From assembly GCA_028290545.1 (NCBI GenBank), contig JAQGJP010000008.1:1-64000 (forward strand): a stretch of DNA of 64,000 nt. Direction: 5' to 3'. A model generated the notes under the pieces. It did not search any database and was not told the origin of the DNA. It saw only the letters and a program-made list of their open reading frames with translations. This DNA comes from Rhizobium sp. GTDB lineage: Bacteria; Pseudomonadota; Alphaproteobacteria; Rhizobiales; Rhizobiaceae. Of the stretch, positions 2,096 to 6,644 are shown in pieces; the first letter of the stretch is position 1; every line of letters starts with the position of its first letter. The position numbers and the translations under genes were made by a program.

Positions 2096-5000
2096 CTATT
2101 TCTTCATTTGCTCCTTCAGGATGGCGAGCTTGGCGAAAGGCGAATCCGGATCGATCGGCTTATCCTTGCGCGGCGGCTTGCTATCGAAGCGCTGCTGTTG
2201 CGGCTTGGCGTTCTTGTCCGGGCGCGGGCCACGGTTCTGATCCTGCTCGCGGTCGCCATTGCGTGGCCGATCCTGGCGCGGCGGACGATTGTCGGCACGC
2301 GGTTCACCTCGCGTCTCCGCCGGCCTGCCATCACGACGGCCTTCGCCGCGTTCACGCGGCGGGCCACGATGCTCGCCCTGCCGGTTTTCGCCCGGCCTGC
2401 CCTCGGCTGGCTTGTTTTCGCCCTGGCGGTTCTCGCCACCCTGACGGCGATTGTCGCGATTGTTCTGGTTGCCATGGTCGCGACGATTGCCGGCGCCCTG
2501 GTTGCCGCGGTTCTGGGTTTCGGGCTTGCCGCCGCCCGGCCGCCAGAGCAGCACGCGCTTTTCTTCCAGCGGGACAGCTTCCACCGGCGCGGCCTCCGGG
2601 GCAGTTTCGGCAGTCTCGGATTTTTCTTCAGCGACGACCGTTTCAGAAGCCTCAGTCGTTTCGGTTTCTGGCTTCTCTTCCACGGCCGGTTCGGCAACGG
2701 TTTCCACCGTAATGTCGACGGCAGGTTGTTCGGCACCCGGCTGTTCGACGGCAGACTCTATCGCGGATTCAGCGGTCTCCTCGGTCGCTGCCAGTTGCGC
2801 CGCGGCCTGTTCTGCGGTCACGCTATCGGCGCGATAGCCGAGGCCCTTGAGGATTTCTTCCATGTCGTCGGCAGTCGCGCCGAGAATGGACAGCATCGAC
2901 GGCGTGGCAATGAAATGGCGGCCGTCATAGGCGCCTTCCGGACGGCTCGCGGCACCCGGCTTCCATTGCAGGAGCGGACGGATGAGATCGGCGAGGCGTT
3001 CGAGGATATCGATGCGCACGGCGCGTTTTCCGAGGAAACGGAACCCGGCCAGCCGGTAGAAATTGCGCTCGAAACCATGATCGGTGACGATCGAGGTGCG
3101 GCCGGCCGCCAGGGCGGGAATCAGGTCGCCATAACCGGGCTTGCCGAGCGCATCATTCTTCAATGCCCAGAGCAGCGTGATCAGTTCGGCCGGAGCCGGC
3201 TTCAGCAGCGCCGGCATGAAGACATGATAGGCGCCGAAACGGATGCCATATTTGCGCATCGAGGCGCGGCCATCCTGATCCAGCGACTTGACGTCCTCGG
3301 TGACATCGCGGCGGAACAGCACGCCGAGATTTTCGGCGATCTGGTAGGCAAGGCCCTTGGCGATGCCTTGCAGGTCTTCGGCGCGCGTCAAATCGTCGAT
3401 CGGCTTGAGCACCGTGGCAATATGGTGATTGACGAAGCGTTCGATGCGGGCTTGCACGTGTTCGCGCGCATGGCCGGACAGCAGCTCGTCGGCCAGAAGC
3501 ACGATGCGCGGACGCAGGATATGGTCGGACGGGGTCAGGCGCGCCACCGGCTCGCCGAGCCAGCGCACCAGGCCGTCGTTCGATAGCGCCAGGTCATTGT
3601 TGCCGGCAGCGTGAAGCCGCGCGGCGCGCGCCTCGAATTCGAGCGCCAGTGCCTTGCTGGCGGCATTTTCCACCGCCTTGAGGTCCTGGCCATCGGCGCC
3701 GCTCGCAAGCGTGAACCGGAAGCCGGACAATTGACCCACATGATGCCCCTCGACGAAGACATCACCATTCACACTGATTTCAGCTTCCAGCATAGTATTC
3801 TCTCTTAGCCGCCTCATGAGCACAGATGTCCTGCGGTCAACGAAGCGTTTGGTCAACCTCTCGTGCAACGCGTCCGAGAGGCGATCCTCAATTCCGCGCG
3901 TTTTTTCCTGCCAGTGTGCTGGATCTGCAAGCCAGCCCGGCCGGTTGGACACATAGGTCCAAGTTCTGATTTGCGCAATACGCGCCGACAAAGTGTCTAT
4001 CTCGCCATCAGTCCGGTCAGACCGGCGAACCTGTTCGGCAATAAAGGCTTCGTTGACGGCGCCATGCCGGACGATATCCTTGTAAATGGCCGCAACAAGA
4101 TCGGAATGCTGGAGCGATGTAATCCGCCTGTAATCGGGAAGCGCGCAAATCTCCCAGAGCTTTTCCACTCTTTCACGCGTCGTGGCAAGCTCCAAAATGT
4201 CCGGATAGCGCGCCAGATGCTCCAGCGCCTGCAGATCGTCGGATGGAAGCGCCCTGGTCAGGCCGTGCACGCGGGGCCCGACTTCGAGGCTGCTCCTCAG
4301 ATTGGAGAGCGTCGAAAAATCGAGCGATTTCGATCGCCATTGCATGACCTTGACCGGATCGAACTGATGGGCCTCGATTCGCCGCACCATTTCGTCGTCG
4401 AAAGGCTGCGTATGGCCGGTCACCCCGAACGTGCCGTCGCGCATGTAGCGTCCGGCGCGTCCGGCGATCTGACCGAGTTCGCCCGGATTGAGGTTGCGGT
4501 ATTGAAAGCCGTCGAATTTACGATCCTGGGCGAAGGCGACATGATCGACATCGAGATTGAGGCCCATGCCGATCGCGTCGGTGGCGACGAGATATTCGAC
4601 ATCGCCTTGCTGGTAGAGTTCGACCTGCGAATTGCGGGTGCGAGGGCTGAGCGCGCCGAGAACGACTGCGGCGCCGCCACGCTGGCGCTTGACGAGTTCG
4701 GCGATCGCATAGACCTCGTCGGCGGAGAAGGCGACGATGACGCTGCGATGCGGCAGGCGGGTGATCTTCTTCTGTCCGGCATAGAACAGCTGGGAAAGGC
4801 GTGGGCGTTCGACAATGGTGATGCCGGGCAGGATTTGATTGAGGATCGGTTTCATCGTGCCGGCACCAAGCAGCAGGGTTTCCTCCCGGCCACGCAGATG
4901 CAGGATGCGGTCGGTGAACACATGACCGCGCTCGAGATCGCCAGCGAGCTGGACCTCATCGATGGCGACGAAGGCCGCACGGGTCTCGTTCGGCATGGCC

Positions 5001-5257
5001 TCGACGGTACAGACGGAAAAACGGGCCGTCGGAGGCGCTATCTTTTCCTCACCGGTGATTAGCGCGACATTGGCGACCCCGACTTTTTCCGCAACCCGGC
5101 CATAGACCTCGCGTGCCAACAGGCGCAGGGGCAGACCTATGATGCCCGAGGAATGCGCGACCATACGCTCGATTGCGTAATGCGTCTTACCGGTATTGGT
5201 TGGGCCGAGAACCGCGGTAACTCCGCGGCCGCTCACTATCAGGGGATCGGAATTCAA
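2096..5257 (-). CDS. Suv3-like superfamily 2 RNA helicase with disordered basic tail
   Basis: 1053-residue helicase of the SUV3 family, the bacterial relatives of the mitochondrial degradosome helicase. Walker A GPTNTGKT is at residues 18-25, the DEVQ Walker B box at 100-103, and motif VI (QIAGRAGR) near 265. After the helicase core the protein has a long alpha-helical middle, an acidic Glu/Ala/Thr-rich linker (about 814-904), then an Arg/Gly/Asn/Gln-rich tail (about 905-1030), ending in a short hydrophobic-basic motif (SPFAKLAILKEQ). Such tails bind RNA or drive condensates. The start appears to be a TTG at 5257, since an in-frame stop lies just upstream; GTG at 5236 is the alternative. A 7-bp hairpin (5284-5301) sits in the leader. 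The S4-protein gene follows after 2 bp. Confidence 0.88.
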   Translation of the reverse strand: MNSDPLIVSGRGVTAVLGPTNTGKTHYAIERMVAHSSGIIGLPLRLLAREVYGRVAEKVGVANVALITGEEKIAPPTARFSVCTVEAMPNETRAAFVAIDEVQLAGDLERGHVFTDRILHLRGREETLLLGAGTMKPILNQILPGITIVERPRLSQLFYAGQKKITRLPHRSVIVAFSADEVYAIAELVKRQRGGAAVVLGALSPRTRNSQVELYQQGDVEYLVATDAIGMGLNLDVDHVAFAQDRKFDGFQYRNLNPGELGQIAGRAGRYMRDGTFGVTGHTQPFDDEMVRRIEAHQFDPVKVMQWRSKSLDFSTLSNLRSSLEVGPRVHGLTRALPSDDLQALEHLARYPDILELATTRERVEKLWEICALPDYRRITSLQHSDLVAAIYKDIVRHGAVNEAFIAEQVRRSDRTDGEIDTLSARIAQIRTWTYVSNRPGWLADPAHWQEKTRGIEDRLSDALHERLTKRFVDRRTSVLMRRLRENTMLEAEISVNGDVFVEGHHVGQLSGFRFTLASGADGQDLKAVENAASKALALEFEARAARLHAAGNNDLALSNDGLVRWLGEPVARLTPSDHILRPRIVLLADELLSGHAREHVQARIERFVNHHIATVLKPIDDLTRAEDLQGIAKGLAYQIAENLGVLFRRDVTEDVKSLDQDGRASMRKYGIRFGAYHVFMPALLKPAPAELITLLWALKNDALGKPGYGDLIPALAAGRTSIVTDHGFERNFYRLAGFRFLGKRAVRIDILERLADLIRPLLQWKPGAASRPEGAYDGRHFIATPSMLSILGATADDMEEILKGLGYRADSVTAEQAAAQLAATEETAESAIESAVEQPGAEQPAVDITVETVAEPAVEEKPETETTEASETVVAEEKSETAETAPEAAPVEAVPLEEKRVLLWRPGGGKPETQNRGNQGAGNRRDHGNQNNRDNRRQGGENRQGENKPAEGRPGENRQGEHRGPPRERGEGRRDGRPAETRGEPRADNRPPRQDRPRNGDREQDQNRGPRPDKNAKPQQQRFDSKPPRKDKPIDPDSPFAKLAILKEQMKK

Positions 5258-5423
5258 ATCGGTCCAGTCCAGGCTTCATTTATGCGGGAGGCAACTCCCG
5301 CTGGGGCATTCCTTGCATCTCCTTTGTTGCAATTGCAAGACAGGATGTCGGCAAGGGGCGAAATCGATCGACGGTACCGCTTAGATAGGGACGATTATGG
5401 AATCGACAATCACACAAGGTTCG

Positions 5424-5500
5424 GAACAGGTTGGGAACGAATCAGCGACGAATCAATGACTCCGTGATGTTCTCTCATTGTTCACCACAATATATTGTGG
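5424..5500. promoter_or_regulatory. Regulatory module copy 1: two LexA-type boxes, GANTC cluster, palindrome
   Basis: A perfect alphaproteobacterial LexA direct repeat GAAC-N7-GAAC is at 5424-5438 and a second, GTTC-N7-GTTC, at 5469-5483. Between them are GANTC sites at 5439, 5450 and 5458, the first two one helical turn (11 bp) apart inside two CGAATCA repeats. A perfect 16-bp palindrome, CCACAATATATTGTGG, follows at 5485-5500. The LexA motif is established for Rhizobiales; its function here, about 170-240 bp upstream of the helicase start, is inference. Confidence 0.6.
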
Positions 5501-5564
5501 ATTTTAGTTATCTCCGGCCGAGAACCTGATGCCGGGTAGATGCACCCTGCATGCGGAGAGGACA

Positions 5565-5590
5565 ACAGCGAAATCAACGGATTTCGCTGT
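5565..5590. repeat. Perfect 11-bp inverted repeat between the two modules
   Basis: ACAGCGAAATC (5565-5575) and GATTTCGCTGT (5580-5590) pair perfectly around a 4-base loop (AACG). There is no T tract on either strand, so it is not a classical terminator. It lies between the two LexA/GANTC modules and could be the folded part of a small RNA, or simply an operator. It also falls inside a 32-codon open frame on the minus strand (5504-5602), which I do not call as a gene. Confidence 0.55.
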
Positions 5591-5668
5591 CAAAGCCATC
5601 ATGGGAGTAGGGTTAATATATTGTAGCTTCTAGCTTTTCGTCGTCCCATTCAAGAGCAGTCAAGACGC

Positions 5669-5745
5669 GAACCGAATCGGAACGAATCACTGACGAATCA
5701 GGGCCCGAGAAAGTTTCTGTATTTGTTCACCACAAAATGTAGTGG
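5669..5745. promoter_or_regulatory. Regulatory module copy 2: LexA-type box, GANTC cluster, imperfect palindrome
   Basis: This is the second copy of the module, 245 bp to the right of the first. GAAC-N7-GAAC is at 5669-5683. GANTC sites are at 5674, 5684 and 5695. The position matching the second LexA box (5714-5728) reads TTTC-N7-GTTC, one mismatch. The palindrome position (5730-5745, CCACAAAATGTAGTGG) is imperfect. Same order and spacing as copy 1 show that the two arose by duplication or are kept by selection, while the sequence between the motifs has diverged. Confidence 0.55.
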
Positions 5746-5918
5746 ATTAGCCATTCGTTTACCATCACACCGGCATACCATTGTTCGGTGCGCTGGCGAA
5801 GGACATAAAAGCTCGAACATGTCGAGACGACCGCTTACCCGTCCGGCCTCGTCCAGTGCCATTATAGAATCATTTGATAGCGCGAGCGACATCGCCGGAT
5901 GCCGCTCACCGAAGAACC

Positions 5919-6644
5919 TCAGGCCAGATACTGGCCTCCATTGGCTGACATCGTCGAACCAGTGATGAAGCCGGCGTCATCGGAGGCTAGGAACACCACG
6001 CAACGCGCAATTTCCTCGGGTTCGCCCAGACGGCCGACCGGGATCTGCGGAATGATCTTTTCGTTCAGCACCTTTTCCGGCACGGCCTTGACCATTTCGG
6101 TGGCGATATAGCCCGGGCAGATGGCGTTGACGGTGATGCCCTTGGCGGCACCTTCCTGGGCGAGCGCCTTGGTGAAGCCGAGATCGCCGGCCTTGGCGGC
6201 CGAATAGTTCACCTGGCCCATCTGGCCCTTCTGGCCATTGATCGAGGAGATATTGATGATCCTGCCGAAAGAGCGATCGCGCATGCCGGTCCAGACAGGA
6301 TGGGTCATATTGAAGAGGCCGCTGAGATTGGTGTTGATCACCGCGCTCCATTGGTCCGGCGTCATCTTGTGGAACATGCCGTCACGGGTGATGCCGGCAT
6401 TATTGACGAGGATTTCCACCGGCCCGAGATCGGCTTCGACCTTGGCAATTCCGGCCGTGCAGGCCTCGTAGCTCGACACATCCCACTTATAGGCGGGGAT
6501 GCCTGTATCGCTGGAGAAGGCCGATGCCGCCGCGTCATTGCCGGCATAGTTGGCTGCCACGTTGTAGCCGGCATTCTTGAGTGCGATCGAGATCGCCGCA
6601 CCGATGCCACGGGTACCGCCCGTGACGATGGCTGTTCTGCGCAT
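5919..6644 (-). CDS. phbB: Acetoacetyl-CoA reductase
   Basis: 241-residue short-chain dehydrogenase that reduces acetoacetyl-CoA to (R)-3-hydroxybutyryl-CoA with NADPH, the second step of polyhydroxybutyrate synthesis. The Rossmann motif TGGTRGIG is at residues 8-15, the NNAG motif near 87, and the catalytic Ser and YxxxK (NYSAAKAG) near 140-157; the family signature IPVGRLGEPEEIA is near the C-terminus. It lies 73 bp downstream of phbA on the same strand, the standard rhizobial phbAB pair. The strongest clue against other SDRs is this partner gene. No polymerase gene (phbC) is in the window, as is usual for rhizobia. Confidence 0.96.
   Translation of the reverse strand: MRRTAIVTGGTRGIGAAISIALKNAGYNVAANYAGNDAAASAFSSDTGIPAYKWDVSSYEACTAGIAKVEADLGPVEILVNNAGITRDGMFHKMTPDQWSAVINTNLSGLFNMTHPVWTGMRDRSFGRIINISSINGQKGQMGQVNYSAAKAGDLGFTKALAQEGAAKGITVNAICPGYIATEMVKAVPEKVLNEKIIPQIPVGRLGEPEEIARCVVFLASDDAGFITGSTMSANGGQYLA

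Follow-up and report, generated by a model that had tools for sequence, protein, structure and literature searches.

The two copies of a direct repeat in the window, the 64,000-nucleotide stretch of Rhizobium sp. DNA analysed here, are best explained as copies of an ancient composite element that regulates the mgpS/Suv3-like helicase gene in cis through NrdR and CcrM/GcrA inputs, a reading that we put forward tentatively and rate slightly below an even chance. The sequence of the module, its conservation, its orientation and synteny with the helicase gene and the geometry of its boxes are direct observations. Spacing in bacterial regulatory DNA usually drifts, and it is unusual for a non-coding module to stay nearly free of gaps before one and the same helicase across distant alphaproteobacteria. 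If the NrdR and CcrM/GcrA inputs are correct, a little-studied Suv3-like helicase would be tied to S phase and to dNTP supply, and the module could serve as a reporter for the coupling of gene expression to replication. No description of the module was found in titles and abstract openings, while an entry in a supplementary table or in RegPrecise is possible.

The module pair sits in the intergenic gap between the stop codon of phaB and the start of the helicase gene. The acetoacetyl-CoA reductase gene phaB (positions 5919 to 6644, minus strand; TIGR01829 over the cut-off) forms the upstream border of the gap. The helicase gene (2096 to 5257, minus strand, with a putative TTG start) encodes a Suv3-like (MgpS) protein of 1053 residues with a Suv3-type DEXQ domain and a Helicase_C domain (PF22527 and PF00271). 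The first-pass annotation had described the region as gene-free with no obvious gene; the gap is indeed intergenic, but it is the upstream region of this minus-strand helicase gene. In S. meliloti, SMc03877 bears the name mgpS and is termed an RNA helicase in an excerpt of PMC4941405. Based on the name and on the synteny, which is seen in S. meliloti Ak57, SMc03877 is probably the orthologue of the window helicase. Between the helicase start and the proximal module lies a CTTGC(AATTG) block (5326 to 5340, minus strand), with CTTGC present in 11 of 11 aligned loci, which is possibly a promoter or leader element. Between both modules, at 5565 to 5590, ACAGCGAAATC and GATTTCGCTGT form a perfect inverted repeat whose loop has 4 bases and which has no T-run.

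The repeat search showed an 80-nt direct repeat (5424 to 5503 and 5669 to 5748) with 73% identity and an offset of exactly 245 bp, confirming the two-copy arrangement claimed in the first-pass annotation. Within this repeat, a module of 76 to 80 bp is present twice, at 5424 to 5499 and at 5669 to 5744. Both copies are read on the minus strand, which is the strand of the helicase. The proximal copy (76 bp) matches model R1 with 67.8 bits (E 2.3e-18) and scores 101.0 on the module matrix, and the distal copy (model match 5669 to 5743) reaches 59.9 bits (E 6.7e-16) and 85.8. A palindrome lies at the same place in both copies, as had been noticed before, with CCACAATATATTGTGG at 5485 to 5500 and the imperfect CCACAAAATGTAGTGG at 5730 to 5745. 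The GANTC sites start at 5439, 5450 and 5458 in the proximal copy and at 5674, 5684 and 5695 in the distal one, so that the spacing of 10 to 11 bp given earlier holds for the distal copy (10 and 11) and only partly for the proximal copy (11 and 8). Two further GANTC sites are found within the gap at 5400 and 5867, and across the two repeat copies the motif is about 10 times denser than in the whole window (6 per 325 bp versus 120 per 64 kb). Each copy includes an exact GATTCGT-N4-GATTCGT pair on the minus strand (5437 to 5454 and 5682 to 5699), which, with at most one mismatch allowed, is confined to the helicase locus in six genomes, own included.

The blastn search with this DNA yields a single place in its own genome and matches in 20 of 61 genomes (its own among them), and the helicase was found at all 28 loci returned. 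Scanning 20 distinct loci for the palindrome together with GAAC..GAAC and GTTC..GTTC yields 44 modules, spread over 19 of these loci, in which the parts are spaced identically and the GATTCG pair hardly varies; this set was picked by motifs other than GATTCG, at loci from the blastn search with the window DNA. Alignment A1 and the sequence-only model comprise 43 of these 44 modules, one with an indel being left out. The sequence model matches 40 of the 61 genomes (E 0.01) and, at the level of the class, 14 of 152 genomes, counting its own (E 1e-4), and 11 of the 13 other class-level loci have a helicase downstream that is 52 to 68% identical. The first-pass annotation had named conservation in relatives as a check, and the module is kept with fixed internal spacing upstream of the same helicase.

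A larger set of 119 stretches (118 genomic and one viral, with genomic stretches numbering at least 118) was found in named genomes with the pattern YGATTCGTCNNYGATTCGTTC. Among the matches listed, the helicase lies downstream in 103 of the 119, each time oriented like the module; of the remaining 16, also among the matches listed, 11 end too near the module, one is ambiguous (L147) and four are without the helicase (L112, L133, L144 and L177). Because the pattern itself demands them, the conservation of the GATTCG pair, of the first GTTC half and of at least two GANTC sites per locus is built into this set. Less biased support comes from the 44-module scan and the model searches, all of which start from blastn loci. 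A reversed module copy was found in none of the 103 helicase upstream regions (237 to 7644 bp) among the matches listed. The hosts among the matches listed include Rhizobium, Mesorhizobium, Ensifer, Brucella, Bartonella, Hoeflea and Ahrensia, joined by metagenome-assembled genomes of Beijerinckiaceae and Hyphomonadaceae, and the module is found in many Hyphomicrobiales and some other alphaproteobacteria. One assembly with 6% contamination shows two inverted helicase upstream regions about 2.9 kb apart (L003/L022, G006:C24:413854-419836), which is possibly a misassembly.

The proximal copies make up one subtype and the distal copies another, represented by 93 and 82 modules (score of at least 50, enough flank, identical modules removed). 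The proximal subtype has the order GATTCAgcATnTgGtg, aaatCnAnATnTaGccGTGAACAAAacctGAAtc (cores 31 bp apart) and GAGTCAgcGATTCGTCgCcGATTCGTTCcagactcGTTCC, and the distal subtype the order cACaAnATnTtGngGtGAACaAAncggGAA, gTCngtGATTCGTCgccGATTCGTTCCGgcTTTGntC and GTtAAcg. The conserved parts are the palindrome CWANATNTWG, GAAC..GAA and GTTC, together with two YGATTCG sites that belong to an array of as many as six GANTC sites. In the 86 helicase loci with more than 1.2 kb of upstream sequence, the matrix counts two copies in 49, one in 16, three in 13, four in 6 and none in 2. Some distal copies are located 1.3 to 3.4 kb upstream of the helicase with other ORFs intervening. Helical phasing between modules was rejected, as the 39 distinct spacings give no tested period that stands out. 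Within 800 bp upstream of the helicase, GANTC occurs at 12.8 per kb, a density that is partly by construction and inflated by the pattern selection, versus 1.2 to 1.3 in two control regions, and GTTAAC at 2.1 per kb versus 0.01 to 0.05 in controls, which is about 40-fold or more. GTTAAC flanks many modules in the pattern-found loci.

The palindrome core carries C and G nine positions apart in 96% of the 93 proximal and 96% of the 82 distal modules, and resembles, with this spacing and its AT centre, the NrdR box pairs in the promoters of ribonucleotide reductase genes. The NrdR-DNA cryo-EM study, as far as its excerpt goes, describes conserved GC pairs of both boxes at 9/18 and 40/49, 31 bp apart, and both boxes bound by one tetramer (PMC9110341). 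Most proximal modules have a partner core at the same distance, which is shared with this structure and with the nrdJ promoters of relatives. The second core at -31 bp scores 5.47 of 8 in proximal modules, against an offset median of 2.31 and a next best offset of 4.12, and a C..G partner is found there in 83% of the proximal and 27% of the distal modules. Of 33 nrdJ-type promoter loci of relatives, 20 have 31 bp as a best spacing; 19 bp follows with 4. Both window copies have an NrdR-like core on the minus strand with 8 of 8 informative positions: CAATATATTG at 5488 to 5497, with a partner 31 bp upstream that fits 5 of 8, and CTACATTTTG at 5733 to 5742, with a partner that fits 2 of 8. Unlike the NrdR boxes of ribonucleotide reductase genes, the module precedes a helicase gene, is fixed in spacing to a GANTC array and occurs in tandem copies, and its partner core is weak in the window as well as among distal copies and distant species. 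The mean for the -31 partner over 17 modules at order and class level is 3.59 of 8, which is level with another offset.

The second predicted input is the GANTC array. In the 93 proximal modules, GANTC is present at position -33 in 76, at 27 in 64, at 37 in 78, at 45 in 93, at 56 in 92 and at 67 in 46, where positions 45 and 56 are conserved by construction and -33, 27 and 37 are free of any selection. The YGATTCG pair of the 44 scanned modules is conserved in 43 to 44 modules per position for the first site and in 41 to 44 for the second, with Y at both sites in 44 of 44. The link to CcrM methylation made by the first-pass annotation gains support from this near-invariant pair (n = 44) and from the unselected GANTC sites. 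YGATTCG fits YGAKTCG, which an excerpt of PMC7987155 describes as the extended form of the motif at promoters activated by GcrA, and in this the module is like the GcrA/CcrM-controlled promoters of alphaproteobacteria. It differs from them in having two sites 11 bp apart with as many as four others in set positions, and in the loss of the second site in 8 of 12 class-level modules. Methylation of both sites is therefore not essential in these cases; GTTC is retained in 7 of the 8 when a one-base shift is allowed. No conserved sigma-70-like promoter pair was found in the module.

From these sequence patterns we infer that NrdR, GcrA or LexA may bind, where the promoter may lie and which sign any effect may have. 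In the proposed mechanism, NrdR with dATP/ATP would occupy the palindrome or palindromes and shut the region as long as dNTPs are plentiful. CcrM would methylate the GANTC array, which would be read by GcrA together with the housekeeping polymerase, tying activation to replication, and additional module copies would supply more sites.

Some copies are kept at places apart from the helicase, which counts against the main reading and would fit a role of the module's own beyond the helicase promoter. On this view, which we consider unlikely, the module would be one fixed unit of 76 to 110 bp in tandem that reads both dNTP supply through NrdR and replication-dependent methylation through CcrM. One genome of 2 Mb (G013) contains two degenerate and opposed modules 10.7 kb apart on contig C12 (L324:3075-3150, minus strand, and L324:13782-13857, plus strand), located away from the helicase, whose match is partial with a stop. 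One of them is flanked by an Abi_2 gene and by a gene that matches nothing in Pfam, and on the other, DFP/flavoprotein and nitroreductase genes converge. At the G120 locus, a LolA-like ORF follows the module. Likewise counting against the main reading, the helicase is present in 23 of the 24 genomes in which the model match is absent, weak or detached (21 without a model match, and G013, G029 and G031 with a weak or detached one). The upstream check covered 20 of the 24 loci, four partial loci being left out; the module was not found in 16 of these 20 regions (best score below -30), while two score 14.0 and 9.7 and two are near 0. The helicase can therefore dispense with the module. Some Rhizobiaceae are without it.

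The tandem copies, the detached copies in G013 and G120, and the occurrence of the GATTCGT pair at one locus per genome in six genomes would also suit a chromosome-maintenance site, similar to datA or DARS, that acts as DNA and precedes the helicase by coincidence. With hemE, which we take to be a marker of oriC from work in S. meliloti and Caulobacter, the distances in 11 genomes are about 47, 50, 51, 108, 131, 133, 144, 180, 433, 482 and 523 kb, and DnaA-like boxes occur upstream of some distal modules. However, hemE is 492, 558, 593 and 598 kb away in four other class members, and the orientation of the module relative to replication is inconsistent (toward hemE in 6 and away from it in 5 of the 11 genomes), whereas, among the matches listed, it is tied to the helicase in every one of the 103 cases. 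A count of the exact box TTATCCACA showed no clustered DnaA boxes in a fixed arrangement either: the 78.9 kb upstream of the helicase hold just 7, versus 0 in controls of 140.8 and 146.8 kb. We consider such a site unlikely as well. DnaA-like boxes (GTGGATAA) lie 20 to 40 bp upstream of the distal module in L068, L157, L164 and other Mesorhizobium loci, which also have an AT-rich block between the modules.

The LexA-type boxes were placed correctly by the first-pass annotation: GAACN7GAAC at 5424 to 5438 and 5669 to 5683 (GTTC-N7-GTTC on the minus strand), GTTCN7GTTC at 5469 to 5483 (plus strand) and a one-mismatch box in the distal module at 5714 to 5728 (plus strand). The window has 8 perfect boxes, of which 3 are in the gap; the cluster is not due to chance, as had been argued, with an expectation of about 0.05 boxes per 661 bp, calculated from the other five, and not 0.02. 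These boxes could form an SOS operator array, on which LexA would repress the helicase until DNA damage occurs. The half-sites and spacing are like those of the alphaproteobacterial LexA operator GTTC-N7-GTTC, 87 of 93 proximal modules have the box at 5424 in perfect form, and the box at 5469 is the top LexA match in the 64-kb window. The LexA matrix is based on 41 boxes of relatives (27 perfect and 14 with one mismatch) and leans toward lexA/recA, because they were hand-picked from lexA and recA promoters; in a leave-one-out run they have a median of 23.0 and a 10th percentile of 15.3. The 5424 box (10.6) and its homologues (median 10.9) fall below this percentile, and their spacers and flanks differ from the lexA/recA boxes of the same genomes. 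The box at 5469 (17.1) is the only one in the window that scores like lexA/recA operators, yet it is perfect in just 9 of 93 proximal modules. Among 82 distal modules, in which such boxes are mostly absent, 12 have a perfect equivalent of the box at 5669 (3.6), and the one-mismatch box scores 8.6. LexA binding or control is possible in this species, but LexA appears not to be what the module is conserved for. We regard the SOS array as an improbable explanation. The earlier proposal of SOS and CcrM control in one element finds support in its methylation half but mostly not in its SOS half, where the case for LexA is weak.

Neighbouring copies are mostly 202 to 300 bp apart and one G013 module lies between two convergent genes, as might be expected of tandem small-RNA genes or of a leader RNA, with the module as the start of each. 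However, Rfam gives no match save one of 15.3 bits, which is probably a chance hit, RNAalifold predicts six pairs of which none has a two-sided change, mutual information reveals no helix, and the folds of the intermodule segments have z of -0.75 and -0.46 (13 segments). The terminator test gave 0 of 87 and likewise 0 in the shuffles, leaving it without power. An RNA element was rejected on these grounds, with a chance that we regard as quite small, and since neither covariation nor a helix is seen, the module is read as DNA.

Several further candidates were rejected: a replication origin itself (hemE 47 to 598 kb away in 15 genomes), a dispersed repeat (one place in its own genome by blastn, the third model match, G000:C29, being weak and scoring -6.6 on the matrix), a phage element (one viral stretch only, L177, with a matrix score of 1.8) and a plasmid element (5 plasmid-collection records, of which the two examined, H1 and H2, show the same helicase context). 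A related dyad, GAACGAATCGGGAATCG..CGATTCGTCCGCGATTCGTTC, is found in Methylopila (L112:1891, minus strand) and Chelatococcus (L133:3103, plus strand), where it lies by a mutase-like gene and not by the helicase.
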